Of a stretch of 64,000 nucleotides of DNA, positions 18,330-59,021 are shown in pieces (within the stretch, counting starts at the first letter, position 1; each line of letters opens with the position of its first letter). This stretch comes from Cornus controversa (Eukaryota; Streptophyta; Magnoliopsida; Cornales; Cornaceae): contig CM048852.1 in NCBI GenBank assembly GCA_026545225.1, forward strand, positions 12,558,146-12,622,145, read 5' to 3'. The translations under genes were made by a program, and so were the position numbers. A model generated the notes under the pieces. It was not told where the DNA came from. It was given only the letters and a program-made list of their open reading frames with translations, and searched no databases.

Positions 18330-18386
18330 TGTAACGCCCCACCCTATCCAGACACAATATTGTCCGCTTTTGGTTCCCCCGGACCA

Positions 18387-18460
18387 GAGACTTCCCAGGG
18401 GGTCACCCATCCTGGTTCTACTCCCAGCTAAGCACGCTTAACTGTGGAGTTCTGGTGGGT
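18387..18460 (-). ncRNA. 5S rRNA-derived domain, Cassandra 1 left LTR
   Basis: The minus strand reads CCAGAACTCCACAGTTAAGC, then GTGCTTAGCTGGGAGTAG, then AGGATGGGTGACCCCCTGGG and AAGTCTC. This aligns with the 3' two thirds of plant 5S rRNA, including the internal polymerase III promoter: A-box AGTTAAGCGTGC, intermediate element (here GTAGAACCAGG) and C-box GGATGGGTGACC. The 5' third of 5S is too diverged to align by eye. It is a derived domain inside an LTR, not a functional 5S rRNA gene. Confidence 0.85.
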
Positions 18461-18479
18461 TCACAACCATCACGGCTTT

Positions 18480-18483
18480 AAAA
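18480..18483 (-). terminator. Possible polymerase III stop (TTTT) in the left LTR
   Basis: This is the first minus-strand TTTT met by a transcript leaving the right-LTR 5S domain. Such a transcript would cover the 5S domain, the internal part and part of the left LTR, about 0.36 kb. A run of four T is a minimal terminator, so read-through is possible. Confidence 0.3.
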
Positions 18484-18514
18484 CGCGTTGTGTCATAGAA
18501 GGGTGATAATCATA

Positions 18515-18523
18515 CATATAATA
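18515..18523 (-). promoter_or_regulatory. TATA-like element upstream of the 5S domain (left LTR)
   Basis: The minus strand reads TATTATATG here, roughly 25-35 bp before where the 5' end of a 5S transcript would fall. Plant 5S genes carry a TATA-like element near -28, so the spacing fits. It could equally serve as the LTR's own polymerase II TATA box. No activity is shown. Confidence 0.4.
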
Positions 18524-18693
18524 CTTCCCCATTCCTAGCCAGGCGATGTGGGATTGAGCACCCTGTAGCCTGCCAGTGTGGTAGCTCGCCCAGTGTCTCG
18601 CACCCGCCCACATCACACCCGCCCACAAGGGTCACCACAATCCACCCCCATAGGAGGCCCGACGTCCCCATCGGCACACTTCCGGCTGGGTCA

Positions 18694-18706
18694 GGCTCTG
18701 ATACCA
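18694..18706 (-). other. Primer binding site of Cassandra 1
   Basis: The minus strand reads TGGTATCAGAGCC two bases inside the 5' LTR (right LTR on this map). This is the sequence complementary to the 3' end of initiator tRNA-Met used by Cassandra and many plant LTR elements to start reverse transcription. It fixes the element's orientation. Confidence 0.9.
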
Positions 18707-18765
18707 TTTGTAACGCCCCACCCTATCCAGACACAATATTGTCCGCTTTGGGTTCCCCCGGACCA

Positions 18766-18839
18766 GAGACTTCCCAGGGGGTCACCCATCCTGGTACTAC
18801 TCCCAGCTAACCACGCTTAACTGTGGAGTTCTGGTGGGT
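18766..18839 (-). ncRNA. 5S rRNA-derived domain, Cassandra 1 right LTR
   Basis: Same domain as in the left LTR. Its intermediate element (GTAGTACCAGG) is closer to the 5S consensus, but the A-box has a C-to-G change (GTTAAGCGTGG). This is the 5' LTR of the element. Confidence 0.85.
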
Positions 18840-18893
18840 TCACAACCATCACGGCTTTAAAACGCGTTGTGTCATAGAAGGGTGATAATCATA

Positions 18894-18902
18894 CATATAA
18901 TA
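18894..18902 (-). promoter_or_regulatory. TATA-like element upstream of the 5S domain (right LTR)
   Basis: The minus strand reads TATTATATG at the same LTR offset as 18515-18523. In the 5' LTR it is the more likely of the two to start an element transcript. Confidence 0.4.
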
Positions 18903-19018
18903 CTTCCCCATTCCTACCCAGACGATGTGGGATTGAGCACCCTGTAGCCTGCCAGTGTGGTAGCTCGCCCAGTGTCTCGCACCCGCCCACATCACACCCG
19001 CCCACAAGGGTCACCACA

Positions 19019-20479
19019 CTAATTGTTTCTTTTACTTGTCCAGATGGTCGAATTTGGAACAAAGCACCATACGGTTGTGATCATTCATGAGTGCAGCAAC
19101 AACGTCGTCACGGTCGAATTTGGCATAAAGCAACGTATAATTCTAAGTATGGCACGCGTTCAATTGGATTGGGACTTTTCGAATCAAAACAAGTCAAACG
19201 AAACATGTTCAAAATCGTTGTTGTGATTCTCTATTCTTCTCCACATCCAGACGGTCAATTCTAGCACAAAGCAACATACTGTTGTGGTCATGCCTGATTT
19301 TTGCAAGGAATTGTTCTTTTCGACTCAGAACAACTCAAACACACTTGGATGAAGATCGGATCGACATACTCGTCGTTTCTTTGGGAGGCTTTGATGGTTT
19401 AATTTCAAAATAAGCAACGTACGATTCGTATTATGCCAGGACTTCTCCTGGAATGTGGTTTCCAAATCAAAACAACTCAAAGGAAACAAGTTTAAAATGG
19501 TTGGTAGCTTGCTAATTGTTTCCTTTAGATGTCCAAACGGTCGAATTTGGAACAAAGCACCATACAGTCGTGATGAAGATCGGATTGACTTGTTCGTCAT
19601 TTCTTTTGGATGCTCTAATGGTCTAATTTGGAAAAAAGCTACGTACGATTCTGATTATGGCACAACTTCTCAAGGAATAGGGTTTTTGAATTAGAACAAC
19701 TCAAACTAAACTTGTTTAAAATCTTCGATAGCTTGCTAATTGTGTCTTTTACTTGTCCAGATGGTCGAATTTGGCACAAAGCACCATACGGTTCTGATCA
19801 TTCATGAGTGCAGAAACGACGTCGTCACGGTCGAATTTGGCATAAAGCAACGTATAATTCTAAGTATGGCACGATTTCACTTGGATTGGGACTTTTCGAA
19901 TCAAAACAAGTCAAACGAAACAAGTTCGAAATCGTTGTTGTGATTCTCTATTCTTCTGCACATCCAGACGGTCAATTCTAGCACAAAGCAACATACTGTT
20001 GTGGTCATGCCTGATTTTTGCAAGGAATTGTTCTTTTCGACTCAGAACAACTCAAACAAACTTGGATGAAGATCGGATCGACATACTCGTCGTTTCTTTG
20101 GGAGGCTTTGATGGTTTAATTTCAAAATAAGCAACGTACGATTCGTATTATGCCAGGACTTCTCCTGGAATGTGGTTTTCAAATCAAAACAACTCAAAGG
20201 AAACAAGTTTAAAATGGTTGGTAGCTTGCTAATTGTTTCCTTTAGATGTCCAAACGGTCGAATTTGGAACAAAGCACCATACGGTCGTGATGAAGATCGG
20301 ATTGACTTGTTCGTCATTTCTTTTGGATGCTCTAATGGTCTAATTTGGAAAAAAGCTACGTACGATTCTGATTATGGCACGACTTCTCAAGGAATAGGGT
20401 TTTTGAATTAGAACAACTCAAACTAAACTTGTTTAAAATCTTCGATAGCTTGCTAATTGTTTCTTTTACTTGTCTAGAT
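19019..20479 (+). repeat. Satellite: two alpha monomers after Cassandra 1
   Basis: The array resumes with the right copy of CTAAT (19019-19023). Monomers start at 19046 and 19763. The first has the GCAGCAACAACG form, GGCACGCGTTCAATTGG, and GTGGTTTCCAAATC in subunit 4. That last variant marks the monomers after Cassandra copies 1, 2, 6 and 7. Confidence 0.85.
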
Positions 20480-23400
20480 GGTCGAATTTGGCACAAACCA
20501 CCATACGGTTCTGATCATTCATGAGTGCAGAAAGGACGTCGTCACGGTCGAATTTGGCTTAAAGCAACGTATAGGTCTATGTATGGCACAATTTCACTTG
20601 GATTGGGACTTTTCGAATCAAAACAAGTCAAACGAAACAAGTTTGAAATCGTTGTTGTGATTCTCTATTCTTCTGCACAGCCAGACGGTCAATTCTAGCA
20701 CAAAGCAACATACTGTTGTGGTCATGCCTGATTTTTGCAAGGAATTGTTCTTTTCGACTCAGAACAACTCAAACAAACTTGGATGAAGATCGGATCGACA
20801 TACTCGTCGTTTCTTTGGGACGTTTTAATGGTTTAATTTCAAAATAAGCAACGTACGATTCGTAGTATGCCAGGACTTCTCCTGGAATGTGGTTTTCGAA
20901 TCAAAATAACTCAAGGGAAACAAGTTTAAAATGTTGGTAGCTTGCTAATTGTTTCTTTTAGATGTCCAAATGGTCGAATTTGGAACAAAGCACCATACGG
21001 TTGTGATGAAGATCGGATTGACTTGTTCGTCATTTCTTTTGGACGCTTTGATGGTCTGATTTGGAAAAAAGCAACGTACGATTCTGATTATGGCACGACT
21101 TCTCAAGGAATAGGGTTTTTGAATTAGAACAACTCAAACTAAACTTGTTTAAAATCTTCGATAGCTTGCTAATTGTTTCTTTTACTTGTCCAGATGGTCG
21201 AATTTGGCACAAAGCACCATACGGTTGTGATCATTCATGAGTGCAGCAAGGACGTCGTCACGGTCGAATTTGGCATAAAGCAACATATAATTCTAAGTAT
21301 GGCACAATTTCACTTGGATTGGGACTTTTCGAATCAAAACAAGTCAAACGAAACAAGTTCGAAATCGTTGTTGTGATTCTCTATTCTTCTGCACAGCCAG
21401 ACGGTCAATTCTAGCACAAAGCATCATACTGTTGTGGTCATCCCTGATTTTTGCAAGGAATTGTTCTTTTCGACTCAGAACAACTCAAACAAACTTAGAT
21501 GAAGATCGGATCGACATACTCGTCGTTTCTTTGGGAGGCTTTGATGGTTTAATTTCAAAATAAGCAACGTACGATTCTTATTATGCCAAGACTTCTCCTG
21601 GAATGTGATTTTCAAATCAAAACAACTCAAAGGAAACAAGTTTAAAATGGTTGGTAGCTTGCTAACTGTTTCCTTTAGATGTCCAAACGGTCGAATTTGG
21701 AACAAAGCACCATACAGTCGTGATGAAGATCGGATTGACTTGTTCGTCATTTCTTTTGGATGCTCTAATGGTCTAATTTGGAAAAAAGCTACGTACGATT
21801 CTGATTATGGCACGACTTCTCAAGGAATAGGGTTTTTGAATTAGAACAACTCAAACTAAACTTGTTTAAAATCTTCGATAGCTTGCTAATTGTTTCTTTT
21901 ACTTGTCCAGATGGTCGAATTTGGAACAAAGCACCATACGGTTCTGATCATTCATGAGTGCAGAAAGGACGTCGTCACGGTCGAATTTGGCATAAAGCAA
22001 CGTATAATTCTAAGTATGGCACGATTTCACTTGGATTGGGACTTTTCGAATCAAAACAAGTCAAACGAAACAAGTTCGAAATCGTTGTTGTGATTCTCTA
22101 TTCTTCTGCACATCCAGACGGTCAATTCTAGCACAAAGCAACATACTGTTGTGGTCATGCCTGATTTTTGCAAGGAATTGTTCTTTTCGACTCAGAACAA
22201 CTCAAACAAACTTGGATGAAGATCGGATCGACATACTCGTCGTTTCTTTGGGAGGCTTTGATGGTTTAATTTCAAAATAAGCAACGTACGATTCGTATTA
22301 TGCCAGGACTTCTCCTGGAATGTGGTTTTCAAATCAAAACAACTCAAAGGAAACAAGTTTAAAATGGTTGGTAGCTTGCTAATTGTTTCCTTTAGATGTC
22401 CAAACGGTCGAATTTGGAACAAAGCACCATACGGTCGTGATGAAGATCGGATTGACTTGTTCGTCATTTCTTTTGGATGCTCTAATGGTCTAATTTGGAA
22501 AAAAGCTACGTACGATTCTGATTATGGCACGACTTCTCAAGGAATAGGGTTTTTCAATTAGAACAACTCAAACTAAACTTGTTTAAAATCTTCGATAGCT
22601 TGCTAATTGTTTCTTTTACTTGTCCAGATAGTCGAATTTGGCACAAAGCACCATACGGTTCTGATCATTCATGAGTGCAGAAAGGACGTCGTCACGGTAG
22701 AATTTGGCATAAAGCAACGTATAATTCTAAGTATGGCACGATTTCACTTGGATTGGGACTTTTCGAATCAAAACAAGTCAAACGAAACATGTTTGATATC
22801 GTTGTTGTGATTCTCTATTCTTCTGCACAGCCAGACGGTCAATTCTAGCACAAAGCAACATACTGTTGTGGTCATGCCTGATTTTTGCAAGGAATTGTTC
22901 TTTTCGACTCAGAACAACTCAAACAAACTTGGATGAAGATCGGATCGACATACTCGTCGTTTCTTTGGGACGTTTTAATGGCTTAATTTCAAAATAAGCA
23001 ACGTACGATTCGTAGTATGCCAGGACTTCTCCTGGAATGTGGTTTTCGAATCAAAATAACTCAAGGGAAACAAGTTTAAAATGTTGGTAGCTTGCTAATT
23101 GTTACTTTTAGATGTCCAAAAGGTCGAATTTGGAACAAAGCACCATACGGTTGTGATGAAGATCGGATTGACTTGTTCGTCATTTCTTTTGGACGCTTTG
23201 ATGGTCTGATTTGGAAAAAAGCAACGTACGATTCTGATTATGGCACGACTTCTCAAGGAATAGGGTTTTTGAATTAGAACAACTCAAACTAAACTTGTTT
23301 AAAATCTTCGATAGCTTGCTAATTGTTTCTTTTACTTGTCCAGATGGTCGAATTTGGCACAAAGCACCATACGGTTGTGATCATTCATGAGTGCAGCAAG

Positions 23401-24779
23401 GACGTCGTCACGGTCGAATTTGGCATAAAGCAACATATAATTCTAAGTATGGCACAATTTCACTTGGATTGGGACTTTTCGAATCAAAACAAGTCAAACG
23501 AAACAAGTTCAAAATCGTTGTTGTGATTCTCTATTCTTCTGCACAGCCAGACGGTCAATTCTAGCACAAAGCAACATACTGTTGTGGTCATCCCTGATTT
23601 TTGCAAGGAATTGTTCTTTTCGACTCAGAACAACTCAAACAAACTAGGATGAAGATCGGATCGACATACTCGTCGTTTCTTTGGGAGGCTTTGATGGTTT
23701 AATTTCAAAATAAGCAACGTACGATTCTTATTATGCCAAGACTTCTCCTGGAATGTGATTTTCAAATCAAAACAACTCAAAGGAAACAAGTTTAAAATGG
23801 TTGGTAGCTTGCTAATTGTTTCCTTTAGATGTCCAAACGGTCGAATTTGGAACAAAGCACCATACAGTCGTGATGAAGATCGGATTGACTTGTTCGTCAT
23901 TTCTTTTGGATGCTCTAATGGTCTAATTTGGAAAAAAGCTACGTACGATTCTGATTATGGCACGACTTCTCAAGGAATAGGGTTTTTGAATTAGAACAAC
24001 TCAAACTAAACTTGTTTAAAATCTTCGATAGCTTGCTAATTGTGTCTTTTACTTGTCCAGATGGTCGAATTTGGAACAAAGCACCATACGGTTCTGATCA
24101 TTCATGAGTGCAGAAAGGACGTCGTCACGGTCGAATTTGGCATAAAGCAACGTATAATTCTAAGTATGGCACGATTTCACTTGGATTGGGACTTTTCGAA
24201 TCAAAACAAGTCAAACGAAACAAGTTCGAAATCGTTGTTGTGATTCTCTATTCTTCTGCACATCCAGACGGTCAATTCTAGCACAAAGCAACATACTGTT
24301 GTGGTCATGCCTGATTTTTGCAAGGAATTGTTCTTTTCGACTCAGAACAACTCAAACAAACTTGGATGAAGATCGGATCGACATACTCGTCGTTTCTTTG
24401 GGAGGCTTTGATGGTTTAATTTCAAAATAAGCAACGTACGATTCGTATTATGCCAGGACTTCTCCTGGAATGTGGTTTTCAAATCAAAACAACTCAAAGG
24501 AAACAAGTTTAAAATGGTTGGTAGCTTGCTAATTGTTTCCTTTAGATGTCCAAACGGTCAAATTTGGAACAAAGCACCATACGGTCGTGATGAAGATCGG
24601 ATTGACTTGTTCGTCATTTCTTTTGGATGCTCTAATGGTCTAATTTGGAAAAAAGCTACGTACGATTCTGATTATGGCACGACTTCTCAAGGAATAGGGT
24701 TTTTGAATTAGAACAACTCAAACTAAACTTGTTTAAAATCTTCGATAGCTTGCTAATTGTTTCTTTTACTTGTCTAGAT
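20480..24779 (+). repeat. Satellite higher-order repeat: 4300-bp hexamer, copy 1
   Basis: Six monomers run gamma-beta-alpha-gamma-beta-alpha, starting at 20480, 21196, 21913, 22630, 23346 and 24063. It is a doubled 2150-bp trimer whose halves have diverged. The first half carries CGTATAGGTCTATGTATGG and GCTAACTGTTTCC. The second half carries CCAGATAGTCGAATTTGG, GTTTGATATCG and GTTACTTTTAG. Confidence 0.92.
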
Positions 24780-27700
24780 GGTCGAATTTGGCACAAACCA
24801 CCATACGGTTCTGATCATTCATGAGTGCAGAAAGGACGTCGTCACGGTCGAATTTGGCTTAAAGCAACGTATAGGTCTATGTATGGCACAATTTCACTTG
24901 GATTGGGACTTTTCGAATCAAAACAAGTCAAACGAAACAAGTTTGAAATCGTTGTTGTGATTCTCTATTCTTCTGCACAGCCAGACGGTCAATTCTAGCA
25001 CAAAGCAACATACTGTTGTGGTCATGCCTGATTTTTGCAAGGAATTGTTCTTTTCGACTCAGAACAACTCAAACAAACTTGGATGAAGATCGGATCGACA
25101 TACTCGTCGTTTCTTTGGGACGTTTTAATGGTTTAATTTCAAAATAAGCAACGTACGATTCGTAGTATGCCAGGACTTCTCCTGGAATGTGGTTTTCGAA
25201 TCAAAATAACTCAAGGGAAACAAGTTTAAAATGTTGGTAGCTTGCTAATTGTTTCTTTTAGATGTCCAAATGGTCGAATTTGGAACAAAGCACCATACGG
25301 TTGTGATGAAGATCGGATTGACTTGTTCGTCATTTCTTTTGGACGCTTTGATGGTCTGATTTGGAAAAAAGCAACGTACGATTCTGATTATGGCACGACT
25401 TCTCAAGGAATAGGGTTTTTGAATTAGAACAACTCAAACTAAACTTGTTTAAAATCTTCGATAGCTTGCTAATTGTTTCTTTTACTTGTCCAGATGGTCG
25501 AATTTGGCACAAAGCACCATACGGTTGTGATCATTCATGAGTGCAGCAAGGACGTCGTCACGGTCGAATTTGGCATAAAGCAACATATAATTCTAAGTAT
25601 GGCACAATTTCACTTGGATTGGGACTTTTCGAATCAAAACAAGTCAAACGAAACAAGTTCGAAATCGTTGTTGTGATTCTCTATTCTTCTGCACAGCCAG
25701 ACGGTCAATTCTAGCACAAAGCATCATACTGTTGTGGTCATCCCTGATTTTTGCAAGGAATTGTTCTTTTCGACTCAGAACAACTCAAACAAACTTAGAT
25801 GAAGATCGGATCGACATACTCGTCGTTTCTTTGGGAGGCTTTGATGGTTTAATTTCAAAATAAGCAACGTACGATTCTTATTATGCCAAGACTTCTCCTG
25901 GAATGTGATTTTCAAATCAAAACAACTCAAAGGAAACAAGTTTAAAATGGTTGGTAGCTTGCTAACTGTTTCCTTTAGATGTCCAAACGGTCGAATTTGG
26001 AACAAAGCACCATACAGTCGTGATGAAGATCGGATTGACTTGTTCGTCATTTCTTTTGGATGCTCTAATGGTCTAATTTGGAAAAAAGCTACGTACGATT
26101 CTGATTATGGCACGACTTCTCAAGGAATAGGGTTTTTGAATTAGAACAACTCAAACTAAACTTGTTTAAAATCTTCGATAGCTTGCTAATTGTTTCTTTT
26201 ACTTGTCCAGATGGTCGAATTTGGAACAAAGCACCATACGGTTCTGATCATTCATGAGTGCAGAAAGGACGTCGTCACGGTCGAATTTGGCATAAAGCAA
26301 CGTATAATTCTAAGTATGGCACGATTTCACTTGGATTGGGACTTTTCGAATCAAAACAAGTCAAACGAAACAAGTTCGAAATCGTTGTTGTGATTCTCTA
26401 TTCTTCTGCACATCCAGACGGTCAATTCTAGCACAAAGCAACATACTGTTGTGGTCATGCCTGATTTTTGCAAGGAATTGTTCTTTTCGACTCAGAACAA
26501 CTCAAACAAACTTGGATGAAGATCGGATCGACATACTCGTCGTTTCTTTGGGAGGCTTTGATGGTTTAATTTCAAAATAAGCAACGTACGATTCGTATTA
26601 TGCCAGGACTTCTCCTGGAATGTGGTTTTCAAATCAAAACAACTCAAAGGAAACAAGTTTAAAATGGTTGGTAGCTTGCTAATTGTTTCCTTTAGATGTC
26701 CAAACGGTCGAATTTGGAACAAAGCACCATACGGTCGTGATGAAGATCGGATTGACTTGTTCGTCATTTCTTTTGGATGCTCTAATGGTCTAATTTGGAA
26801 AAAAGCTACGTACGATTCTGATTATGGCACGACTTCTCAAGGAATAGGGTTTTTCAATTAGAACAACTCAAACTAAACTTGTTTAAAATCTTCGATAGCT
26901 TGCTAATTGTTTCTTTTACTTGTCCAGATAGTCGAATTTGGCACAAAGCACCATACGGTTCTGATCATTCATGAGTGCAGAAAGGACGTCGTCACGGTAG
27001 AATTTGGCATAAAGCAACGTATAATTCTAAGTATGGCACGATTTCACTTGGATTGGGACTTTTCGAATCAAAACAAGTCAAACGAAACATGTTTGATATC
27101 GTTGTTGTGATTCTCTATTCTTCTGCACAGCCAGACGGTCAATTCTAGCACAAAGCAACATACTGTTGTGGTCATGCCTGATTTTTGCAAGGAATTGTTC
27201 TTTTCGACTCAGAACAACTCAAACAAACTTGGATGAAGATCGGATCGACATACTCGTCGTTTCTTTGGGACGTTTTAATGGCTTAATTTCAAAATAAGCA
27301 ACGTACGATTCGTAGTATGCCAGGACTTCTCCTGGAATGTGGTTTTTGAATCAAAATAACTCAAGGGAAACAAGTTTAAAATGTTGGTAGCTTGCTAATT
27401 GTTACTTTTAGATGTCCAAAAGGTCGAATTTGGAACAAAGCACCATACGGTTGTGATGAAGATCGGATTGACTTGTTCGTCATTTCTTTTGGACGCTTTG
27501 ATGGTCTGATTTGGAAAAAAGCAACGTACGATTCTGATTATGGCACGACTTCTCAAGGAATAGGGTTTTTGAATTAGAACAACTCAAACTAAACTTGTTT
27601 AAAATCTTCGATAGCTTGCTAATTGTTTCTTTTACTTGTCCAGATGGTCGAATTTGGCACAAAGCACCATACGGTTGTGATCATTCATGAGTGCAGCAAG

Positions 27701-29079
27701 GACGTCGTCACGGTCGAATTTGGCATAAAGCAACATATAATTCTAAGTATGGCACAATTTCACTTGGATTGGGACTTTTCGAATCAAAACAAGTCAAACG
27801 AAACAAGTTCAAAATCGTTGTTGTGATTCTCTATTCTTCTGCACAGCCAGACGGTCAATTCTAGCACAAAGCAACATACTGTTGTGGTCATCCCTGATTT
27901 TTGCAAGGAATTGTTCTTTTCGACTCAGAACAACTCAAACAAACTAGGATGAAGATCGGATCGACATACTCGTCGTTTCTTTGGGAGGCTTTGATGGTTT
28001 AATTTCAAAATAAGCAACGTACGATTCTTATTATGCCAAGACTTCTCCTGGAATGTGATTTTCAAATCAAAACAACTCAAAGGAAACAAGTTTAAAATGG
28101 TTGGTAGCTTGCTAATTGTTTCCTTTAGATGTCCAAACGGTCGAATTTGGAACAAAGCACCATACAGTCGTGATGAAGATCGGATTGACTTGTTCGTCAT
28201 TTCTTTTGGATGCTCTAATGGTCTAATTTGGAAAAAAGCTACGTACGATTCTGATTATGGCACGACTTCTCAAGGAATAGGGTTTTTGAATTAGAACAAC
28301 TCAAACTAAACTTGTTTAAAATCTTCGATAGCTTGCTAATTGTGTCTTTTACTTGTCCAGATGGTCGAATTTGGAACAAAGCACCATACGGTTCTGATCA
28401 TTCATGAGTGCAGAAAGGACGTCGTCACGGTCGAATTTGGCATAAAGCAACGTATAATTCTAAGTATGGCACGATTTCACTTGGATTGGGACTTTTCGAA
28501 TCAAAACAAGTCAAACGAAACAAGTTCGAAATCGTTGTTGTGATTCTCTATTCTTCTGCACATCCAGACGGTCAATTCTAGCACAAAGCAACATACTGTT
28601 GTGGTCATGCCTGATTTTTGCAAGGAATTGTTCTTTTCGACTCAGAACAACTCAAACAAACTTGGATGAAGATCGGATCGACATACTCGTCGTTTCTTTG
28701 GGAGGCTTTGATGGTTTAATTTCAAAATAAGCAACGTACGATTCGTATTATGCCAGGACTTCTCCTGGAATGTGGTTTTCAAATCAAAACAACTCAAAGG
28801 AAACAAGTTTAAAATGGTTGGTAGCTTGCTAATTGTTTCCTTTAGATGTCCAAACGGTCAAATTTGGAACAAAGCACCATACGGTCGTGATGAAGATCGG
28901 ATTGACTTGTTCGTCATTTCTTTTGGATGCTCTAATGGTCTAATTTGGAAAAAAGCTACGTACGATTCTGATTATGGCACGACTTCTCAAGGAATAGGGT
29001 TTTTGAATTAGAACAACTCAAACTAAACTTGTTTAAAATCTTCGATAGCTTGCTAATTGTTTCTTTTACTTGTCTAGAT
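24780..29079 (+). repeat. Satellite higher-order repeat: 4300-bp hexamer, copy 2
   Basis: It repeats 20480-24779 at exactly 4300 bp with all the private marks of both halves. I noticed only isolated differences, such as GGTTTTTGAATC near 27343 against GGTTTTCGAATC near 23043. It is among the most recent duplications in the window. Confidence 0.92.
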
Positions 29080-33357: not shown

Positions 33358-33414
33358 TGTAACGCCCCACCCTATCCAGACACAATATTGTCCGCTTTTG
33401 GTTCCCCCGGACCA

Positions 33415-33488
33415 GAGACTTCCCAGGGGGTCACCCATCCTGGTTCTACTCCCAGCTAAGCACGCTTAACTGTGGAGTTCTGGTGGGT
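33415..33488 (-). ncRNA. 5S rRNA-derived domain, Cassandra 2 left LTR
   Basis: A-box AGTTAAGCGTGC and C-box GGATGGGTGACC are intact; the intermediate element reads GTAGAACC. No change from copy 1. Confidence 0.82.
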
Positions 33489-33793: not shown

Positions 33794-33867
33794 GAGACTT
33801 CCCAGGGGGTCACCCATCCTGGTACTACTCCCAGCTAACCACGCTTAACTGTGGAGTTCTGGTGGGT
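33794..33867 (-). ncRNA. 5S rRNA-derived domain, Cassandra 2 right LTR
   Basis: C-box intact; the A-box carries the C-to-G change (GCGTGG) found in all right LTRs. Confidence 0.82.
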
Positions 33868-41913: not shown

Positions 41914-41970
41914 TGTAACGCCCCATCCTATCCAGACACAATATTGTCCGCTTTTGATTCCCCCGGACCA

Positions 41971-46908: not shown

Positions 46909-46965
46909 TGTAACGCCCCACCCTATCCAGACACAATATTGTCCGCTTTTGGTTCCCCCGGACCA

Positions 46966-47039
46966 GAGACTTCCCAGGGGGTCACCCATCCTGGTTCTAC
47001 TCCCAGCTAAGCACGCTTAACTGTGGAGTTCTGGTGGGT
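46966..47039 (-). ncRNA. 5S rRNA-derived domain, Cassandra 5 left LTR
   Basis: Identical by eye to the left-LTR domain of copy 1. Confidence 0.82.
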
Positions 47040-47344
47040 TCACAACCATCACGGCTTTAAAACGCGTTGTGTCATAGAAGGGTGATAATCATACATATAA
47101 TACTTCCCCATTCCTAGCCAGGCGATGTGGGATTGAGCACCCTGTAGCCTGCCAGTGTGGTAGCTCGCCCAGTGTCTCGCACCCGCCCACATCACACCCG
47201 CCCACAAGGGTCACCACAATCCACCCCCATAGGAGGCCCGACGTCCCCATCGGCACACTTCCGGCTGGGTCAGGCTCTGATACCATTTGTAACGCCCCAC
47301 CCTATCCAGACACAATATTGTCCGCTTTGGGTTCCCCCGGACCA

Positions 47345-47418
47345 GAGACTTCCCAGGGGGTCACCCATCCTGGTACTACTCCCAGCTAACCACGCTTAAC
47401 TGTGGAGTTCTGGTGGGT
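47345..47418 (-). ncRNA. 5S rRNA-derived domain, Cassandra 5 right LTR
   Basis: Identical by eye to the right-LTR domain of copy 1, including the GCGTGG A-box. Confidence 0.82.
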
Positions 47419-47597
47419 TCACAACCATCACGGCTTTAAAACGCGTTGTGTCATAGAAGGGTGATAATCATACATATAATACTTCCCCATTCCTACCCAG
47501 ACGATGTGGGATTGAGCACCCTGTAGCCTGCCAGTGTGGTAGCTCGCCCAGTGTCTCGCACCCGCCCACATCACACCCGCCCACAAGGGTCACCACA

Positions 47598-50500
47598 CTA
47601 ATTGTTTCTTTTACTTGTCCAGATGGTCGAATTTGGAACAAAGCACCATATGGTTGTGATCATTCATGAGTGCAGCAACAACGTCGTCACGGTCGAATTT
47701 GGCATAAAGCAACGTATAATTCTAAGTATGGCACGCGTTCACTTGGATTGGGACTTTTCGAATCAAAACAAGTCAAACGAAACATGTTCAAAATCGTTGT
47801 TGTGATTCTCTATTCTTCTCCACATCCAGACGGTCAATTCTAGCACAAAGCAACATACTGTTGTGGTCATGCCTGATTTTTGCAAGGAATTGTTCTTTTC
47901 GACTCAGAACAACTCAAACACACTTGGATGAAGATCGGATCGACATACTCGTCGTTTCTTTGGGAGGCTTTGATGGTTTAATTTCAAAATAAGCAACGTA
48001 CGATTCGTATTATGCCAGGACTTCTCCTGGAATGTGGTTTTCAAATCAAAACAACTCAAAGGAAACAAGTTTAAAATGGTTGGTAGCTTGCTAATTGTTT
48101 CCTTTAGATGTCCAAACGGTCGAATTTGGAACAAAGCACCATACGGTCGTGATGAAGATCGGATTGACTTGTTCGTCATTTCTTTTGGATGCTCTAATGG
48201 TCTAATTTGGAAAAAAGCTACGTACGATTCTGATTATGGCACGACTTCTCAAGGAATAGGGTTTTTGAATTAGAACAACTCAAACTAAACTTGTTTAAAA
48301 TCTTTGATAGCTTGCTAATTGTTTCTTTTACTTGTCCAGATGGTCGAATTTGGCACAAAGCACCATACGGTTCTGATCATTCATGAGTGCAGAAAGGACG
48401 TCGTCACGGTCGAATTTGGCATAAAGCAACGTATAATTCTAAGTATGGCACGATTTCACTTGGATTGGGACTTTTCGAATCAAAACAAGTCAAACGAAAC
48501 AAGTTCGAAATCGTTGTTGTGATTCTCTATTCTTCTGCACATCCAGACGGTCAATTCTAGCACAAAGCAACATACTGTTGTGGTCATGCCTGATTTTTGC
48601 AAGGAATTGTTCTTTTCGACTCAGAACAACTCAAACAAACTTGGATGAAGATCGGATCGACATACTCGTCGTTTCTTTGGGAGGCTTTGATGGTTTAATT
48701 TCAAAATAAGCAACGTACGATTCGTATTATGCCAGGACTTCTCCTGGAATGTGGTTTCCAAATCAAAACAACTCAAAGGAAACAAGTTTAAAATGGTTGG
48801 TAGCTTGCTAATTGTTTCCTTTAGATGTCCAAACGGTCGAATTTGGAACAAAGCACCATACAGTCGTGATGAAGATCGGATTGACTTGTTCGTCATTTCT
48901 TTTGGATGCTCTAATGGTCTAATTTGGAAAAAAGCTACGTACGATTCTGATTATGGCACAACTTCTCAAGGAATAGGGTTTTTGAATTAGAACAACTCAA
49001 ACTAAACTTGTTTAAAATCTTCGATAGCTTGCTAATTGTGTCTTTTACTTGTCCAGATGGTCGAATTTGGCACAAAGCACCATACGGTTCTGATCATTCA
49101 TGAGTGCAGAAAGGACGTCGTCACGGTCGAATTTGGCATAAAGCAACGTATAATTCTAAGTATGGCACGATTTCACTTGGATTGGGACTTTTCGAATCAA
49201 AACAAGTCAAACGAAACAAGTTCGAAATCGTTGTTGTGATTCTCTATTCTTCTGCACATCCAGACGGTCAATTCTAGCACAAAGCAACATACTGTTGTGG
49301 TCATGCCTGATTTTTGCAAGGAATTGTTCTTTTCGACTCAGAACAACTCAAACAAACTTGGATGAAGATCGGATCAACATACTCGTCGTTTCTTTGGGAG
49401 GCTTTGATGGTTTAATTTCAAAATAAGCAACGTACGATTCTTATTATGCCAAGACTTCTCCTGGAATGTGATTTTCAAATCAAAACAACTCAAAGGAAAC
49501 AAGTTTAAAATGGTTGGTTGCTTGCTAATTGTTTCCTTTAGATGTCCAAACGATCGAATTTGGAACAAAGCACCATACGGTTGTGATGAAGATCGGATTG
49601 ACTTGTTCGTCTTTTCTTTTGGACGCTTTGATGGTCTGATTTGGAAAAAAGCAACGTACGATTCTGATTATGGCACGACTTCTCCTGGAATGTGGTTTTC
49701 GAATTAGAACAACTCAAACTAAACTTGTTTAAAATCTTCGATAGCTTGCTAATTGTTTCTTTTAGTTGTCTAGATGGTCGAATTTGGCACAAAGCACCAT
49801 ACGGTTCTGATCATTCATGAGTGCAGAAAGGACGTCGTCACGGTCGAATTTGGCTTAGAGCAACGTATAATTCTAAGTATGGCACAATTTCACTTGGATT
49901 GGGACTTTTCGAATCAAAACAAGTCAAACGAAACAAGTTTGAAATCGTTGTTGTGATTCTCTATTCTTCTGCACAGCCAGACGGTCAATTCTAGCACAAA
50001 GCAACATACTGTTGTGGTCATGCCTGATTTTTGCATGGAATTGTTCTTTTCGACTCAGAACAACTCAACCAAACTTGGATGAAGATCGGATCGACATACT
50101 CGTCGTTTCTTTGGGAGGCTTTGATGGTTTAATTTCAAAATAAGCAACGTACGATTCTTATTATGCCAAGACTTCTCCTGGAATGTGATTTTCAAATCAA
50201 AACAACTCAAAGGAAACAAGTTTAAAATGGTTGGTTGCTTGCTAATTGTTTCCTTTAGATGTCCAAACGATCGAATTTGGAACAAAGCACCATACGGTTG
50301 TGATTAAGATCGGATTGACTTGTTCGTCATTTCTTTTGGATGCTTTGATGGTCTAATTTGGAAAAAAGCTACGTACGATTCTGATTATGGCACGACTTCT
50401 CAAGGAATAGGGTTTTTGAATTAGAAAAACTCAAACTAAACTTGTTTAAAATCTTCGATAGCTTGCTAATTGTTTCTTTTACTTGTCCAGATGGTCGAAT

Positions 50501-52622
50501 TTGGAACAAAGCACCATACGGTTCTGATCATTTCATGAGTGCAGAAAGGACGTCGTCACGGTCGAATTTGGCATAAAGCAACGTATAATTCTAAGTATGG
50601 CACGATTTCACTTGGATTGGGACTTTTCGAATCAAAACAAGTCAAACGAAACAAGTTCGAAATCGTTGTTGTGATTCTCTATTCTTCTGCACATCCAGAC
50701 GGTCAATTCTAGCACAAAGCAACATACTGTTGTGGTCATGCCTGATTTTTGCAAGGAATTGTTCTTTTCGACTCAGAACAACTCAAACAAACTTGGATGA
50801 AGATCGGATCGACATACTCGTCGTTTCTTTGGGAGGCTTTGATGGTTTAATTTCAAAATAAGCAACGTACGATTCGTATTATGCCAGGACTTCTCCTGGA
50901 ATGTGGTTTTCAAATCAAAACAACTTAAAGGAAACAAGTTTAAAATGGTTGGTAGCTTGCTAATTGTTTCCTTTAGATGTCCAAACGGTCGAATTTGGAA
51001 CAAAGCACCATACGGTCGTGATGAAGATCGGATTGACTTGTTCGTCATTTCTTTTGGATGCTCTAATGGTCTAATTTGGAAAAAAGCTACGTACGATTCT
51101 GATTATGGCACGACTTCTCAAGGAATAGGGTTTTTGAATTAGAACAACTCAAACTAAACTTGTTTAAAATCTTCGATAGCTTGCTAATTGTTTCTTTTAC
51201 TTGTCCAGATGGTCGAATTTGGCACAAAGCACCATACGGTTGTGATCATTCATGAGTGCAGCAAGGACGTCGTCACGGTCGAATTTGGCATAAAGCAACA
51301 TATAATTCTAAGTATGGCACAATTTCACTTGGATTGGGACTTTTCGAATCAAAACAAGTCAAACGAAACAAGTTCGAAATCGTTGTTGTGATTCTCTATT
51401 CTTCTGCACATCCAGACGGTCAATTCTAGCACAAAGCAACATACTGTTGTGGTCATGCCTGATTTTTGCAAGGAATTGATCTTTTCGACTCAGAACAACT
51501 CAAACAAACTTGGATGAAGATCGGATCGACATACTCGTCGTTTCTTTGGGAGGCTTTGATGGTTTAATTTCAAAATAAGCAACGTACGATTCGTATTATG
51601 CCAGGACTTCTCCTGGAATGTGGTTTTCAAATCAAAACAACTCAAAGGAAACAAGTTTAAAATGGTTGGTAGCTTGCTAATTATTTCCTTTAGATGTCCA
51701 AACGGTCGAATTTGGAACAAAGCACCATACGGTCGTGATGAAGATCGGATTGACTTGTTCGTCATTTCTTTTGGATGCTGTAATGATCTAATTTGGAAAA
51801 AAGCTACGTACGATTATGATTATGGCACGATTTCTCAAGGAATAGGGTTTTTGAATTAGAACAACTCAAACTAAACTTGTTTAAAATCTTCGATAGCTTG
51901 CTAATTGTGTCTTTTACTTGTCCAGATGGTCGAATTTGGCACAAAGCACCATACGGTTCTGATCATTCATGAGTGCAGAAAGGACGTCGTCACGGTCGAA
52001 TTTGGCATAAAGCAACGTATAATTCTAAGTATGGCACGATTTCACTTGGATTGGGACTTTTCGAATCAAAACAAGTCAAACGAAACAAGTTCGAAATCGT
52101 TGTTGTGATTCTCTATTCTTCTGCACAGCCAGACGGTCAATTCTAGCACAAAGCAACATACTGTTGTGGTCATCCCTGATTTTTGCAAGGAATTGTTCTT
52201 TTCGACTCAGAACAACTCAAACAAACTAGGATGAAGATCGGATCGACATACTCGTCGTTTCTTTGGGAGGCTTTGATGGTTTAATTTCAAAATAAGCAAC
52301 GTACGATTCTTATTATGCCAAGACTTCTCCTGGAATGTGATTTTCAAATCAAAACAACTCAAAGGAAACAAGTTTAAAATGGTTGGTTGCTTGCTAATTG
52401 TTTCCTTTAGATGTCCAAACGGTCGAATTTGGAACAAAGCACCATACGGTTGTGATGAAGATCGGATTGACTGTTTCGTCATTTCTTTTGGATGCTTTGA
52501 TGGTCTAATTTGGAAAAAAGCAACGTACGATTCTGATTATGGCACGACTTCTCAAGGAATAGGGTTTTTGAATTAGAACAACTCAAACTAAACTTGTTTA
52601 AAATCTTCGATAGCTTGCTAAT
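47598..52622 (+). repeat. Satellite: seven monomers between Cassandra 5 and 6
   Basis: Monomers start at 47625 (alpha), 48342 (alpha), 49059 (delta), 49776 (beta), 50493 (alpha, 718 bp because of an extra T in CATTTCATGAG), 51211 (alpha) and 51928 (beta, interrupted at 52623). The stretch of about 48.75-50.4 kb recurs at 53.75-55.4 kb, offset 4996 bp. The alpha monomer at 51211 carries the cluster GATGCTGTAATGATC, CGATTATGATTATGG and CGATTTCTC, which is reused at 56206, 56923 and 61917. Confidence 0.85.
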
Positions 52623-52679
52623 TGTAACGCCCCACCCTATCCAGACACAATATTGTCCGCTTTTGGTTCCCCCGGACCA

Positions 52680-52753
52680 GAGACTTCCCAGGGGGTCACC
52701 CATCCTGGTTCTACTCCCAGCTAAGCACGCTTAACTGTGGAGTTCTGGTGGGT
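52680..52753 (-). ncRNA. 5S rRNA-derived domain, Cassandra 6 left LTR
   Basis: Promoter boxes intact as in the other left LTRs. Confidence 0.82.
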
Positions 52754-53057
52754 TCACAACCATCACGACTTTAAAACGCGTTGTGTCATAGAAGGGTGAT
52801 AATCATACATATAATACTTCCCCATTCCTAGCCAGGCGATGTGGGATTGAGCACCCTGTAGCCTGCCAGTGTGGTAGCTCGCCCAGTGTCTCGCACCCGC
52901 CCACATCACACCGCCCACAAGGGTCACCACAATCCACCCCCATAGGAGGCCCGACCTCCCCGTCGGCACACTTCCGGCTGGGTCAGGCTCTGATACCATT
53001 TGTAACGCCCCACCCTATCCAGACACAATATTGTCCGCTTTTGGTTCCCCCGGACCA

Positions 53058-53131
53058 GAGACTTCCCAGGGGGTCACCCATCCTGGTACTACTCCCAGCT
53101 AACCACGCTTAACTGTGGAGTTCTGGTGGGT
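53058..53131 (-). ncRNA. 5S rRNA-derived domain, Cassandra 6 right LTR
   Basis: Altered A-box as in the other right LTRs. A private C-to-T change (GGGTTTACAACC) lies at its edge. Confidence 0.8.
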
Positions 53132-53310
53132 TTACAACCATCACGGCTTTAAAACGCGTTGTGTCATAGAAGGGTGATAATCATACATATAATACTTCCC
53201 CATTCCTACCCAGACGATGTGGGATTGAGCACCCTGTAGCCTGCCAGTGTGGTAGCTCGCCCAGTGTCTCGCACCCGCCCACATCACACCCGCCCACAAG
53301 GGTCACCACA

Positions 53311-56300
53311 CTAATTGTTTCTTTTACTTGTCCAGATGGTCGAATTTGGAACAAAGCACCATACGGTTGTGATCATTCATGAGTGCAGCAACAACGTCGT
53401 CACGGTCGAATTTGGCATAAAGCAACGTATAATTCTAAGTATGGCACGCGTTCACTTGGATTGGGACTTTTCGAATCAAAACAAGTCAAACGAAACATGT
53501 TCAAAATCGTTGTTGTGATTCTCTATTCTTCTCCACATCCAGACGGTCAATTATAGCACAAAGCAACATAGTGTTGTGGTCATGCCTGATTTTTGCAAGG
53601 AATTGTTCTTTTCGACTCAGAACAACTCAAACACACTTGGATGAAGATCGGATCGACATACTCGTCGTTTCTTTGGGAGGCTTTGATGGTTTAATTTCAA
53701 AATAAGCAACGTACGATTCGTATTATGCCAGGACTTCTCCTGGAATGTGGTTTCCAAATCAAAACAACTCAAAGGAAACAAGTTTAAAATGGTTGGTAGC
53801 TTGCTAATTGTTTCCTTTAGATGTCCAAACGGTCGAATTTGGAACAAAGCACCATACAGTCGTGATGAAGATCGGATTGACTTGTTCGTCATTTCTTTTG
53901 GATGCTCTAATGGTCTAATTTGGAAAAAAGCTACGTACGATTCTGATTATGGCACGGCTTCTCAAGGAATAGGGTTTTTGAATTAGAACAACTCAAACTA
54001 AACTTGTTTAAAATCTTCGATAGCTTGCTAATTGTGTCTTTTACTTGTCCAGATGGTCGAATTTGGCACAAAGCACCATACGGTTCTGATCATTCATGAG
54101 GGCAGAAAGGACGTCGTCACGGTCGAATTTGGCATAAAGCAACGTATAATTCTAAGTATGGCACGATTTCACTTGGATTGGGACTTTTCGAATCAAAACA
54201 AGTCAAACGAAACAAGTTCGAAATCGTTGTTGTGATTCTCTATTCTTCTGCACATCCAGACGGTCAATTCTAGCACAAAGCAACATACTGTTGTGGTCAT
54301 GCCTGATTTTTGCAAGGAATTGTTCTTTTCGACTCAGAACAACTCAAACAAACTTGGATGAAGATCGGATCGACATACTCGTCGTTTCTTTGGGAGGCTT
54401 TGATGGTTTAATTTCAAAATAAGCAACGTACGATTCTTATTATGCCAAGACTTCTCCTGGAATGTGATTTTCAAATCAAAACAACTCAAAGGAAACAAGT
54501 TTAAAATGGTTGGTTGCTTGCTAATTGTTTCCTTTAGATGTCCAAACGATCGAATTTGGAACAAAGCACCATACGGTTGTGATGAAGATCGGATTGACTT
54601 GTTCGTCGTTTCTTTTGGACGCTTTGATGGTCTGATTTGGAAAAAAGCAACGTACGATTCTGATTACGGCACAACTTCTCCTGTAATGTGGTTTTCGAAT
54701 TAGAACAACTCAAACTAAACTTGTTTAAAATCTTCGATAGCTTGCTAATTGTTTCTTTTAGTTGTCTAGATGGTCGAATTTGGCACAAAGCACCATACGG
54801 TTCTGATCATTCATGAGTGCAGAAAGGACGTCGTCACGGTCGAATTTGGCTTAGAGCAACGTATAATTCTAAGTATGGCACAATTTCACTTGGATTGGGA
54901 CTTTTCGAATCAAAACAAGTCAAACGAAACAAGTTTGAAATCGTTGTTGTGATTCTCTATTCTTCTGCACAGCCAGACGGTCAATTCTAGCACAAAGCAA
55001 CATACTGTTGTGGTCATGCCTGATTTTTGCATGGAATTGTTCTTTTCGACTCAGAACAACTCAACCAAACTTGGATGAAGATCGGATCGACATACTCGTC
55101 GTTTCTTTGGGAGGCTTTGATGGTTTAATTTCAAAATAAGCAACGTACGATTCTTATTATGCCAAGACTTCTCCTGGAATGTGATTTTCAAATCAAAACA
55201 ACTCAAAGGAAACAAGTTTAAAATGGTTGGTTGCTTGCTAATTGTTTCCTTTAGATGTCCAAACGATCGAATTTGGAACAAAGCACCATACGGTTGTGAT
55301 TAAGATCGGATTGACTTGTTCGTCATTTCTTTTGGATGCTTTGATGGTCTAATTTGGAAAAAAGCAACGTACGATTCTGATTATGGCACGACTTCTCAAG
55401 GAATAGGGTTTTTGAATTAGAACAACTCAAACTAAACTTGTTGAAAATCTTGGATAGCTTGCTAAATGTTTCTTTTACTTGTCCAGATGGTCGAATTTGG
55501 AACAAAGCACCATACGGTTGTGATCATTCATGAGTGCAGCAACAACGTCGTCACGGTCGAATTTGGCATAAAGCAACGTATAATTCTAAGTATGGCACGC
55601 GTTCACTTGGATTGGGACTTTTCGAATCAAAACAAGTCAAACGAAACATGTTCAAAATCGTTGTTGTGATTCTCTATTCTTCTCCACATCCAGACGGTCA
55701 ATTCTAGCACAAAGCAACATACTGTTGTGGTCATGCCCGATTTTTGCAAGGAATTGTTCTTTTCGACTCAGAACAACTCAAACAGACTTGGATGAAGATC
55801 GGATCGACATACTCGTCGTTTCTTTGGGAGGCTTTGATGGTTTAATTTCAAAATAAACAACGTACGATTCGTATTATGCCAGGACTTCTCCTGGAATGTG
55901 GTTTTCAAATCAAAACAACTCAAAGGAAACAAGTTTAAAATGGTTGGTAGCTTTCTAATTGTTTCCTTTAGATGTCCAAACGGTCGAATTTGGAACAAAG
56001 CACCATACAGTCGTGATGAAGATCGGATTGACTTGTTCGTCATTTCTTTTGGATGCTCTAATGGTCTAATTTGGAAAAAAGCTACGTACGATTCTGATTG
56101 TGGCACCACTTCTCAAGGAATAGGGTTTTTGAATTAGAACAACTCAAACTAAACTTGTTTAAAATCTTCGATAGCTTGCTAATTGTTTCTTTTACTTGTC
56201 TAGATGGTCGAATTTGGCACAAAGCACCATACGGTTCTGATCATTCATGAGTGCAGAAAGGACGTCGTCACGGTCGAATTTGGCATAAAGCAACGTATAA

Positions 56301-58334
56301 TTCTAAGTATGGCACGATTTCACTTGGATTGGGACTTTTCGAATCAAAACAAGTCAAACGAAACAAGTTCGAAATCGTTGTTGTGATTCTCTATTCTTCT
56401 GCACATCCAGACGGTCAATTCTAGCACAAAGCAACATACTGTTGTGGTCATGCCTGATTTTTGCAAGGAATTGATCTTTTCGACTCAGAACAACTCAAAC
56501 AAACTTGGATGAAGATCGGATCGACATACTCGTCGTTTCTTTGGGAGGCTTTGATGGTTTAATTTCAAAATAAGCAACGTACGATTCGTATTATGCCAGG
56601 ACTTCTCCTGGAATGTGGTTTTCAAATCAAAACAACTCAAAGGAAACAAGTTTAAAATGGTTGGTAGCTTGCTAATTATTTCCTTTAGATGTCCAAACGG
56701 TCGAATTTGGAACAAAGCACCATACGGTCGTGATGAAGATCGGATTGACTTGTTCGTCATTTCTTTTGGATGCTGTAATGATCTAATTTGGAAAAAAGCT
56801 ACGTACGATTATGATTATGGCACGATTTCTCAAGGAATAGGGTTTTTGAATTAGAACAACTCAAACTAAACTTGTTTAAAATCTTCGATAGCTTGCTAAT
56901 TGTTTCTTTTACTTGTCCAGATGGTCGAATTTGGCACAAAGCACTATACGGTTGTGATCATTCATGAGTGCAGCAAGGACGTTGTCACGGTCGAATTTGG
57001 CATAAAGCAACATATAATTCTAAGTATGGCACAATTTCACTTGGATTGGGACTTTTCGAATCAAAACAAGTCAAACGAAACAAGTTCGAAATCGTTGTTG
57101 TTATTCTCTATTCTTCTGCACAGCCAGACGGTTAATTCTAGCACAAAGCAACATACTGTTGTGGTCATGCCTAATTTTTGCATGAAATTGTTCTTTTCGA
57201 CTCAGAACAACTCAAACAAACTTGGATGAAGATCGGATCGACATACTCGTCGTTTCTTTGGGAGGCTTTGATGGTTTAATTTCAAAATAAGCAACGTACG
57301 ATTCGTATTATGCCAGGACTTCTCCTGGAATGTGGTTTTCAAATCAAAACAACTCAAAGGAAACAAGTTTAAAATGGTTGGTAGCTTGCTAATTATTTCC
57401 TTTAGATGTCCAAACGGTCGAATTTGGAACAAAGCACCATACGGTCGTGATGAAGATCGGATTGACTTGTTCGTCATTTCTTTTGGATGCTGTAATGATC
57501 TAATTTGGAAAAAAGCTACGTACGATTATGATTATGGCACGATTTCTCAAGGAATAGGGTTTTTGAATTAGAACAACTCAAACTAAACTTGTTTAAAATC
57601 TTCGATAGCTTGCTAATTGTGTCTTTTACTTGTCCAGATGGTCGAATTTGGCACAAAGCACCATACGGTTCTGATCATTCATGAGTGCAGAAAGGACGTC
57701 GTCACGGTCGAATTTGGCATAAAGCAACGTATAATTCTAAGTATGGCACGATTTCACTTGGATTGGGACTTTTCGAATCAAAACAAGTCAAACGAAACAA
57801 GTTCGAAATCGTTGTTGTGATTCTCTATTCTTCTGCACAGCCAGACGGTCAATTCTAGCACAAAGCAACATACTATTGTGGTCATCCCTGATTTTTGCAA
57901 GGAATTGTTATTTTCGACTCAGAACAACTCAAACAAACTAGGATGAAGATCGGATCAACATACTCGTCGTTTCTTTGGGAGGCTTTGATGGTTTAATTTC
58001 AAAATAAGCAACGTACGATTCTTATTATGCCAAGACTTCTCCTGGAATGTGATTTTCAAATCAAAACAACTCAAAGGAAACAAGTTTAAAATGGTTGGTT
58101 GCTTGCTAATTGTTTCCTTTAGATGTCCAAACGGTCGAATTTGGAACAAAGCACCATACGGTTGTGATGAAGATCGGATTGACTGTTTCGTCATTTCTTT
58201 TGGATGCTTTGATGGTCTAATTTGGAAAAAAGCAACGTACGATTCTGATTATGGCACGACTTCTCAAGGAATAGGGTTTTTGAATTAGAACAACTCAAAC
58301 TAAACTTGTTTAAAATCTTCGATAGCTTGCTAAT
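53311..58334 (+). repeat. Satellite higher-order repeat: ~5.71-kb unit, copy 1
   Basis: Seven monomers: 53338 (alpha), 54055 (delta), 54772 (beta), 55489 (alpha, GCAGCAACAACG), 56206 (alpha), 56923 (alpha) and 57640 (beta, interrupted at 58335). With Cassandra the unit is 5711 bp. A Cassandra-free beta-to-GCAGCAACAACG junction at 55462 reads CTAAATG instead of CTAATTG. Confidence 0.88.
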
Positions 58335-58391
58335 TGTAACGCCCCACCCTATCCAGACACAATATTATCCGCTTTTGGTTCCCCCGGACCA

Positions 58392-58465
58392 GAGACTTCC
58401 CAGGGGGTCACCCATCCTGGTTCTACTCCCAGCTAAGCACGCTTAACTGTGGAGTTCTGGTGGGT
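58392..58465 (-). ncRNA. 5S rRNA-derived domain, Cassandra 7 left LTR
   Basis: Promoter boxes intact as in the other left LTRs. A G-to-A change (ATATTATCCGC) lies downstream of the domain. Confidence 0.8.
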
Positions 58466-58697
58466 TCACAACCATCACGACTTTAAAACGCGTTGTGTCA
58501 TAGAAGGGTGATAATCATACATATAATACTTCCCCATTCTTAGCCAGGCGATGTGGGATTGAGCACCCTGTAGCCTGCCAGTGTGGTAGCTCGCCCAGTG
58601 TCTCGCACCCGCCCACATCACACCGCCCACAAGGGTCACCACAATCCACCACCATAGGAGGCCCGACGTCCCCGTCGGCACACTTCCGGCTGGGTCA

Positions 58698-58710
58698 GGC
58701 TCTCATACCA
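58698..58710 (-). other. Mutated primer binding site of Cassandra 7
   Basis: The minus strand reads TGGTATGAGAGCC; the other six copies read TGGTATCAGAGCC. One mismatch to initiator tRNA-Met would weaken priming. Confidence 0.85.
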
Positions 58711-58769
58711 TTTGTAACGCCCCACCCTATCCAGACACAATATTGTCCGCTTTTGGTTCCCCCGGACCA

Positions 58770-58842
58770 GAGACTTCCCAGGGGGTCACCCATCCTGGTA
58801 CTACCCCAGCTAACCACGCTTAACTGTGGAGTTCTGGTGGGT
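58770..58842 (-). ncRNA. 5S rRNA-derived domain, Cassandra 7 right LTR
   Basis: It has the altered A-box plus a 1-bp deletion (CTACCCCAGC on the plus strand), which shortens the spacing between A-box and C-box. Confidence 0.8.
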
Positions 58843-59021
58843 TCACAACCATCACGGCTTTAAAACGCGTTCTGTCATAGAAGGGTGATAATCATACATA
58901 TAATACTTCCCCATTCCTACCCAGACGATGTGGGATTGAGCACCCTGTAGCCTGCCAGTGTGGTAGCTCGCCCAGTGTCTCGCACCCGCCCACATCACAC
59001 CCGCCCACAAGGGTCACCACA

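Follow-up and report, generated by a model that had tools for sequence, protein, structure and literature searches.

Introduction

Long terminal repeat (LTR) elements residing in satellite arrays can be duplicated after their integration by exchange of the satellite itself, as happens with ATHILA in the CEN178 arrays of Arabidopsis. Passages of PMC12046899 mention ATHILA invasion and its purging by satellite homogenisation. Here we describe a 64,000-bp stretch of Cornus controversa DNA (C8:12558146-12622145; contig CM048852.1 of assembly GCA_026545225.1), hereafter called the window, which is filled by a satellite with a 717-bp unit. Like the ATHILA/CEN178 system it has a retroelement within a satellite array, subject to its exchange, but here the element is the miniature Pol III-type (RNA polymerase III) Cassandra, and its nine copies are in all likelihood copies of one insertion, carrying polarised LTR markers.

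Cassandra is a terminal-repeat retrotransposon in miniature (TRIM). Passages of PMC7215508 (Kalendar et al. 2020), from which we took the primer binding site (PBS) TGGTATCAGAGC and the definition of boxes A and C, describe an element with a 5S-derived LTR, the two boxes 18 bases apart, this PBS, no coding sequence and a 5-bp target site duplication (TSD), and the elements studied here are alike in these respects. The same passages describe tandem Cassandra arrays, whose three-LTR, two-internal-domain form is also that of one of our copies, E8. In tandem Cassandra, however, LTR plus internal domain is repeated, whereas in our array it is the satellite block that repeats, and complete elements, each with its two TSDs, stand apart from one another with satellite units in between. 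A foreign segment which joined a higher-order satellite structure and gained copies is described for the great-ape subterminal satellite in passages of PMC12058530; there a 34-kb spacer was duplicated and is present in more than 477 copies in gorilla, and in contrast to our element it is not a transposon with TSDs. Repeated multi-monomer blocks of several lengths are likewise a feature of alpha-satellite higher-order repeats (PMC8099727, in part); our locus differs in kingdom and satellite, and its element-bearing blocks are repeated only twice each and form no long homogeneous higher-order array. In the papers on Cassandra screened by title and opening of the abstract, and in the parts consulted of PMC7215508, PMC10853983 and PMC11899658, no amplification of Cassandra inside a satellite is described.

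Results and discussion

Nine Cassandra copies share one base of the satellite unit

Fourteen LTR starts TGTAACGCCCC are present in the window (chance mean 0.31 at no more than one mismatch) and make up seven elements, E1 to E7, to which E8 and E9 just right of the window are added, giving nine copies within 56 kb (Table 1). The window elements are 687-689 bp long, with LTRs of 309-310 bp around a 69-bp internal domain, and start with TGTAACGCCCC and end with CACCACA. Two LTRs, a short internal domain, a length below 1 kb, TG...CA ends and a 5-bp TSD together give the architecture of a Cassandra TRIM. In E1, the one copy searched against RF00001, a 5S rRNA-like stretch was found on the minus strand of both the right LTR (37.2 bits, E 1.1e-5) and the left LTR (26.1 bits, E 0.0093), both scores lying below the gathering score of 38. 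Boxes A and C are 18 bases apart in all nine left LTRs, and GCTCTGATACCA, the reverse complement of the Cassandra PBS, stands at the right end of the internal domain in seven of the nine copies, with one base altered in E7 and E9. The elements are Cassandra in minus orientation, and the right LTR is therefore the 5' LTR.

An initial annotation of this DNA, made from the sequence alone, had described seven elements at the same base, with the same CTAAT duplication and orientation. Indeed, all seven window copies stand at offset 393 of the 717-bp unit with CTAAT on both sides; the minus strand is an addition of ours, and base, TSD and orientation are common to all nine copies once E8 and E9 are included. 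The place of insertion had been named subunit 6, a name that we could not reproduce: the unit consists of two first subunits of about 224 bp, about 80% alike, and a more diverged remainder, and the insertion falls in the second subunit.

The host units, that is the satellite units carrying an element, are also of one type. As had been noted initially for the host monomers, they share GATTGACTGTTTCG, which has exactly seven matches on the plus strand of the window, one per host unit, while GATTGACTTGTTCG has 68. The seven window hosts differ from one another by 1-5 bp; the nearest of the 73 other window units is at least 7 bp away and the mean is 27-29, and in a tree of the window units the hosts form a clade with an ultrafast bootstrap (UFBoot) of 99. 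With units typed by similarity over the extended array (260 units), two adjacent bases (unit positions 244-245) mark 9/9 hosts and none of the 251 others.

We searched the whole genome (771.7 Mb, 61 contigs) with patterns, for which the counts of repeats are lower bounds. The host marker (up to one mismatch) and the right satellite-Cassandra junction (up to three mismatches) were each found nine times, only at the nine copies, and within the limits of these counts neither a further junction nor a further host marker was seen. The single shared site predicted initially was thus recovered, whereas the claim that Cassandra had become a building block of the satellite family proved too wide, as the element is carried by 9 of the 260 typed units and its junction was met nowhere else in these searches. 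For the left junction, CTAATTGTAACGCCCC, there are 13 exact genome matches, namely the nine copies and four places without Cassandra at this site. None of these four was accepted as a satellite-Cassandra junction: on C2 and C18 the base is occupied by LTR elements of other kinds, around C7:8458134 the 10 kb examined contain no Cassandra and no satellite, and C7:54933471 has a Cassandra-like match about 0.6 kb away and no satellite.

LTR differences fixed after insertion

Four differences between left and right LTR (columns 88, 103, 209 and 214 of the window alignment) are fixed in all seven window copies and in all nine copies; columns 209 and 214 become 210 and 215 in the nine-copy alignment. 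The derived state is in 9/9 left LTRs at columns 88 and 210, and in 10/10 right or middle LTRs at columns 103 and 215. These include the three differences that the initial annotation had named (columns 88, 103 and 209), and its figure of about five holds for four of them, the fifth (column 42) being present in only 5/7 window copies, with G there confined to the right LTRs of E1-E5. Similarly, A at column 146 is restricted to the left LTRs of E6-E9. Counted by eye, transversions account for 3 of the 4 fixed columns; of the 13 further variable columns with substitutions, 8 have the look of C to T or G to A changes, numbers too small to judge.

For comparison we used 39 LTRs from elsewhere in the genome, 38 of them from 19 of 20 other Cassandra loci on C1-C3 and one from C8:12638626. 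The genome has at least 584 Cassandra LTR starts, and the 20 loci were chosen from about 100 listed, all with no more than one mismatch at the LTR start and 19 of them with at least two such starts, the exception being L048 with a single one; being picked by a near-exact LTR start, this set is biased to young copies and also to C1-C3. Six LTR starts lacking a recognised end, including the sole start of L048, were left out, as was a rearranged LTR of L047. The derived states of the four columns are present in none of the 39 LTRs (one is gapped at column 210), and a private A at column 21, found in 19/19 LTRs of the nine copies, occurs in 1/39. Right LTRs form a clade with bootstrap 99 for the seven copies and UFBoot 97 when the 39 others, from the at least 584 starts, are added, so that left and right LTRs separate in the way the initial annotation had anticipated. 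Furthermore, none of the 15 pairs of the six informative sites in the nine elements is in conflict.

The last base of box A is changed in 10/10 right or middle LTRs, i.e. on the 5' side, with box C kept, while box A is intact in 9/9 left LTRs and in 39/39 other genomic LTRs, all 39 of which have both boxes. Judged from the motif, such a change would disable transcription, and since the Pol III box A of the 5' LTR is altered in every copy, transposition was probably not the engine that multiplied this element.

Probable multiplication with the satellite

A shared site, a shared TSD, LTR mutations acquired after insertion and bases private to the hosts, all found here, are the marks of a single insertion amplified by satellite exchange, which is what the initial annotation had put forward; the shared junction, the host marker and the separation of the LTRs support it. 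We consider it highly probable that one insertion was multiplied by duplication of satellite blocks and not by jumping. Cassandra would have integrated once into one unit of the 717-bp array on C8, duplicating 5-bp CTAAT as the anatomy shows, and would have remained single long enough for two mutations per LTR, those fixed in 9/9 copies. Unequal exchange between misaligned units would then have duplicated the element-bearing blocks until nine copies lay within 56 kb, and the element would now be replicated as a passenger of the satellite. Blocks of three, seven and eight units are shared by three pairs of copies, from which we infer unequal crossing-over. The three block pairs (six copies) are 99.4-99.8% identical, above the typical identity from unit to unit, as expected of higher-order repeats. 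E1-E5 and E6-E9 are each marked by one derived base, and each group is contiguous on the contig (chance 0.016).

In E8 the middle and right LTRs are identical, as are the two internal domains, and its three-LTR form would be expected of unequal exchange between the LTRs of sister copies. The host sequence left of the element is that of the E1 host (0/393 differences), and the one right of it is that of three empty units of the neighbourhood, V157, V160 and V177 (0/324). The type switches between unit base 319 (last difference from the empty units) and unit base 428 (first difference from the E1 host), with the element at 393; because only host-type units carry this element in the array, the break would lie at or right of the element, within 35 bp.

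With the rate of 1.3e-8 per site per year taken from the initial annotation, the four differences fixed across the two LTRs correspond to about 0.50 My before amplification (Poisson 0.14-1.27), and the mean left-right distance of 6.9 over the nine copies to about 0.85 My in all, dates which are all rough since exchange occurs inside the array. The age of about half a million years proposed initially is thus of the right order and fits the phase before amplification, but not the whole history. Left LTRs differ from one another by 2.2 on average and right LTRs by 2.5, and for the seven copies such distances correspond to about 0.28 My. Seventeen other genomic Cassandra elements, a sample that leans young, have a mean of 2.3 left-right differences (0-6).

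The nine copies can serve as a dated and polarised tracer, a unique tag among interchangeable repeats from which the order and size of exchanges become readable. They also suggest a route by which a miniature element may gain copies despite a changed 5' promoter motif, and if each copy were scored as a transposition, nine events would be counted instead of one.

Other LTR elements at the same base and other Cassandra insertions

LTR elements on C2 (about 3.9 kb, C2:41715959 onward) and C18 (10.7 kb, C18:967855-978556) stand at the homologous satellite base with CTAAT on both sides. They were first found with a pattern containing CTAAT, and the test was therefore repeated without it. In the 60 bp downstream of the satellite word AACAACTCAAA there are 14 starts TGTAACGCCCC, which we reduce to seven separate insertions by treating the C8 copies as one event; eight of these nine copies were recovered, E3 being missed because of a changed base in its satellite word. 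Three of the seven insertions share the position, with a chance of 0.009 that is rough because all three belong to the second subunit and the remaining four to the first. Base 393 thus seems to be a real target hot spot of LTR elements, and, since such elements target it repeatedly, the common base is by itself weak evidence for a single insertion.

At least three further Cassandra insertions occupy other bases of this satellite family, at C3:512364, at C3:1262335 and, as a chimera, at C8:12638626; they are separate events and leave the reading of the nine copies intact. Such insertions elsewhere in the satellite arrays are undercounted here, about 100 of the 584 LTR starts having been listed. 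The chimera, which lies in the array that also fills the window, is a 4389-bp insertion (C8:12638626-12643014) opening with a Cassandra LTR, its internal domain and the first part (160 bp) of another Cassandra LTR, and going on as an LTR-type element of a different kind; it is flanked by GATGA at both ends, as if it had integrated as such, and its left junction has one match in the genome (up to two mismatches). The Cassandra cluster at C3:512364-513579 comprises four LTR starts, with one piece inverted; it occupies a different satellite base and has CAACC on both sides. The insertion at C3:1262335 lies at yet another satellite base.

Alternative explanations

Several observations speak against a single insertion spread by block duplication. 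The base occupied by the nine copies is also hit by other LTR elements. When host sites are added to the window set, one of 36 informative pairs is in conflict (element site 341 with host site 534). Block partners were computed for three pairs and for none of E5, E8 and E9, and element divergence does not rise with distance on the contig (nine copies; Mantel r 0.15, p 0.26). Taken as a whole and not divided at the insertion, the host unit of E8 is nearer to empty units (12 differences) than to other hosts (17-22). The unit left of E1 (window about 17818-17935) differs from that of E2 by 7 bases in one 180-bp bin of an otherwise near-identical block, and since these differences are clustered beside E1, gene conversion probably acts too. 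Also, the initial annotation had taken Cassandra at many different monomer positions, with different target duplications, as speaking against it, and this applies in part: at least three separate insertions lie at other bases, with the nine copies untouched.

Gene conversion could even be the main agent, one insertion having been spread with short flanks and not in whole blocks. The several types into which the left neighbours of the copies fall, the change of unit type near the element in E8 and the 7-difference patch beside E1 would all agree with this. Nevertheless, all seven copies in the window have at least their entire 717-bp host unit in common, with 1-5 differences, and three pairs share blocks of 2.8-6.4 kb in register, lengths which fit duplication better, and we regard conversion as the chief agent as improbable. 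Independent insertions of Cassandra into a preferred satellite base are suggested by the C2 and C18 elements at base 393 with CTAAT and by the position shared by 3/7 separate events (chance 0.009), but they leave unexplained the private LTR differences acquired after insertion by 9/9 copies and the host bases private to 9/9 hosts against 0/251 other units; for the nine copies this explanation is already refuted, and we give it practically no weight. As tandem satellites are hard to assemble, and as no base differs between E1 and E5 in 689 bp, one stretch might have been repeated by the assembly. Most copies, however, have private changes in element or host, the structure of E8 is distinct and the spacings between copies differ, so that an artefact is very unlikely. 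Duplication of satellite blocks carrying one Cassandra insertion is hence the reading that we retain for the features collected in Table 1.

Table 1. Positions of the Cassandra copies, their host units and the shared blocks (window positions unless a contig is named)
Feature	Position	Strand	Remarks
Cassandra copy E1	18330..19018	-	left LTR 18330-18639, internal 18640-18708, right/5' LTR 18709-19018; CTAAT 18325-18329 and 19019-19023
Cassandra copy E2	33358..34046	-	from LTR starts and anatomy
Cassandra copy E3	39069..39757	-	from LTR starts and anatomy
Cassandra copy E4	41914..42602	-	from LTR starts and anatomy
Cassandra copy E5	46909..47597	-	identical to E1 across the element (689 bp)
Cassandra copy E6	52623..53310	-	688 bp
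Cassandra copy E7	58335..59021	-	687 bp
Cassandra copy E8	C8:12624342-12625409		right of window; 1068 bp, three LTRs
Cassandra copy E9	C8:12631868-12632555		right of window
Host unit of E1	17937..19347	+	717-bp satellite unit with element inside
Other host units, starts	32965, 38676, 41521, 46516, 52230, 57942	+	
3-unit block with E3	37959..40803	+	tandem sister of 40804-43648; 7 differences in 2845 columns
3-unit block with E4	40804..43648	+	tandem sister of E3 block
7-unit block with E6	51513..57224	+	tandem sister of 57225-62935; 33 differences in 5712 columns
7-unit block with E7	57225..62935	+	tandem sister of E6 block
8-unit block with E1	15787..22214	+	copy at 30815-37242; 21 differences in 6428 columns
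8-unit block with E2	30815..37242	+	about 15 kb from E1 block
Satellite array, 717-bp unit	1..64000	+	fills the window

A Ty3-type candidate partner

Ends and PBS such as those of Cassandra are common to many plant LTR elements. In the comparison of the C18 element with Cassandra, the LTR ends read TGTAACGCCCC...GGTCTCTACA against TGTAACGCCCC...GGTCACCACA, and PBS and orientation are the same. The C18 element has Pfam domains of gag, protease, reverse transcriptase, RNase H and integrase, as in the Ty3/Gypsy type, its integrase core (rve) scoring 27.2 bits, below the cut-off of 32.6, and its integrase zinc domain 76.1 bits; its LTRs are 99.97% identical. The autonomous partner of Cassandra is called unknown in PMC7215508, and passages of PMC4717578 report that longer relatives were identified for 11 of the 289 TRIM subfamilies, coding-complete ones in four cases, and name no longer relative for Cassandra. 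The common target base and LTR ends offer the Ty3-type family as a concrete candidate for this partner, and the link is a lead rather than a result, because such ends and PBS occur widely. It is conceivable, though doubtful, that a Ty3/Gypsy family with the ends and PBS of Cassandra is its driver here, integrating at the same satellite base, and that the inserted element marks the edge of unit exchange, which would link the insertion site with amplification.

An element of the C18 family at C3:880561 starts at the same base as the Cassandra cluster at C3:512364, a pair found by searching that site itself. The match at C3:880549 had been considered as a second copy of that Cassandra insertion and was rejected, being this C18-family element.

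The satellite array

The array extends at least over C8:12496146-12722112, its left side adjoining a stretch that reads N. Removal of the elements from the window leaves 80 full units of 716-718 bp each, which differ by a median of 23 in 717. The family is large, with at least 481 exact genome matches to one 38-base word, and the matches listed fall on C3 (within its first 4.3 Mb), on C4 (within its first 2.4 Mb) and on C8, including the start of this contig. At C8:1-125000 the satellite is found on the opposite strand, and most of its matches there recur at intervals of about 2874 bp, which suggests a higher-order repeat of four units. Within the window, positions 3605-15786 and 20065-30814 hold higher-order blocks of five and six units without the element, where several pairs of units are fully identical.

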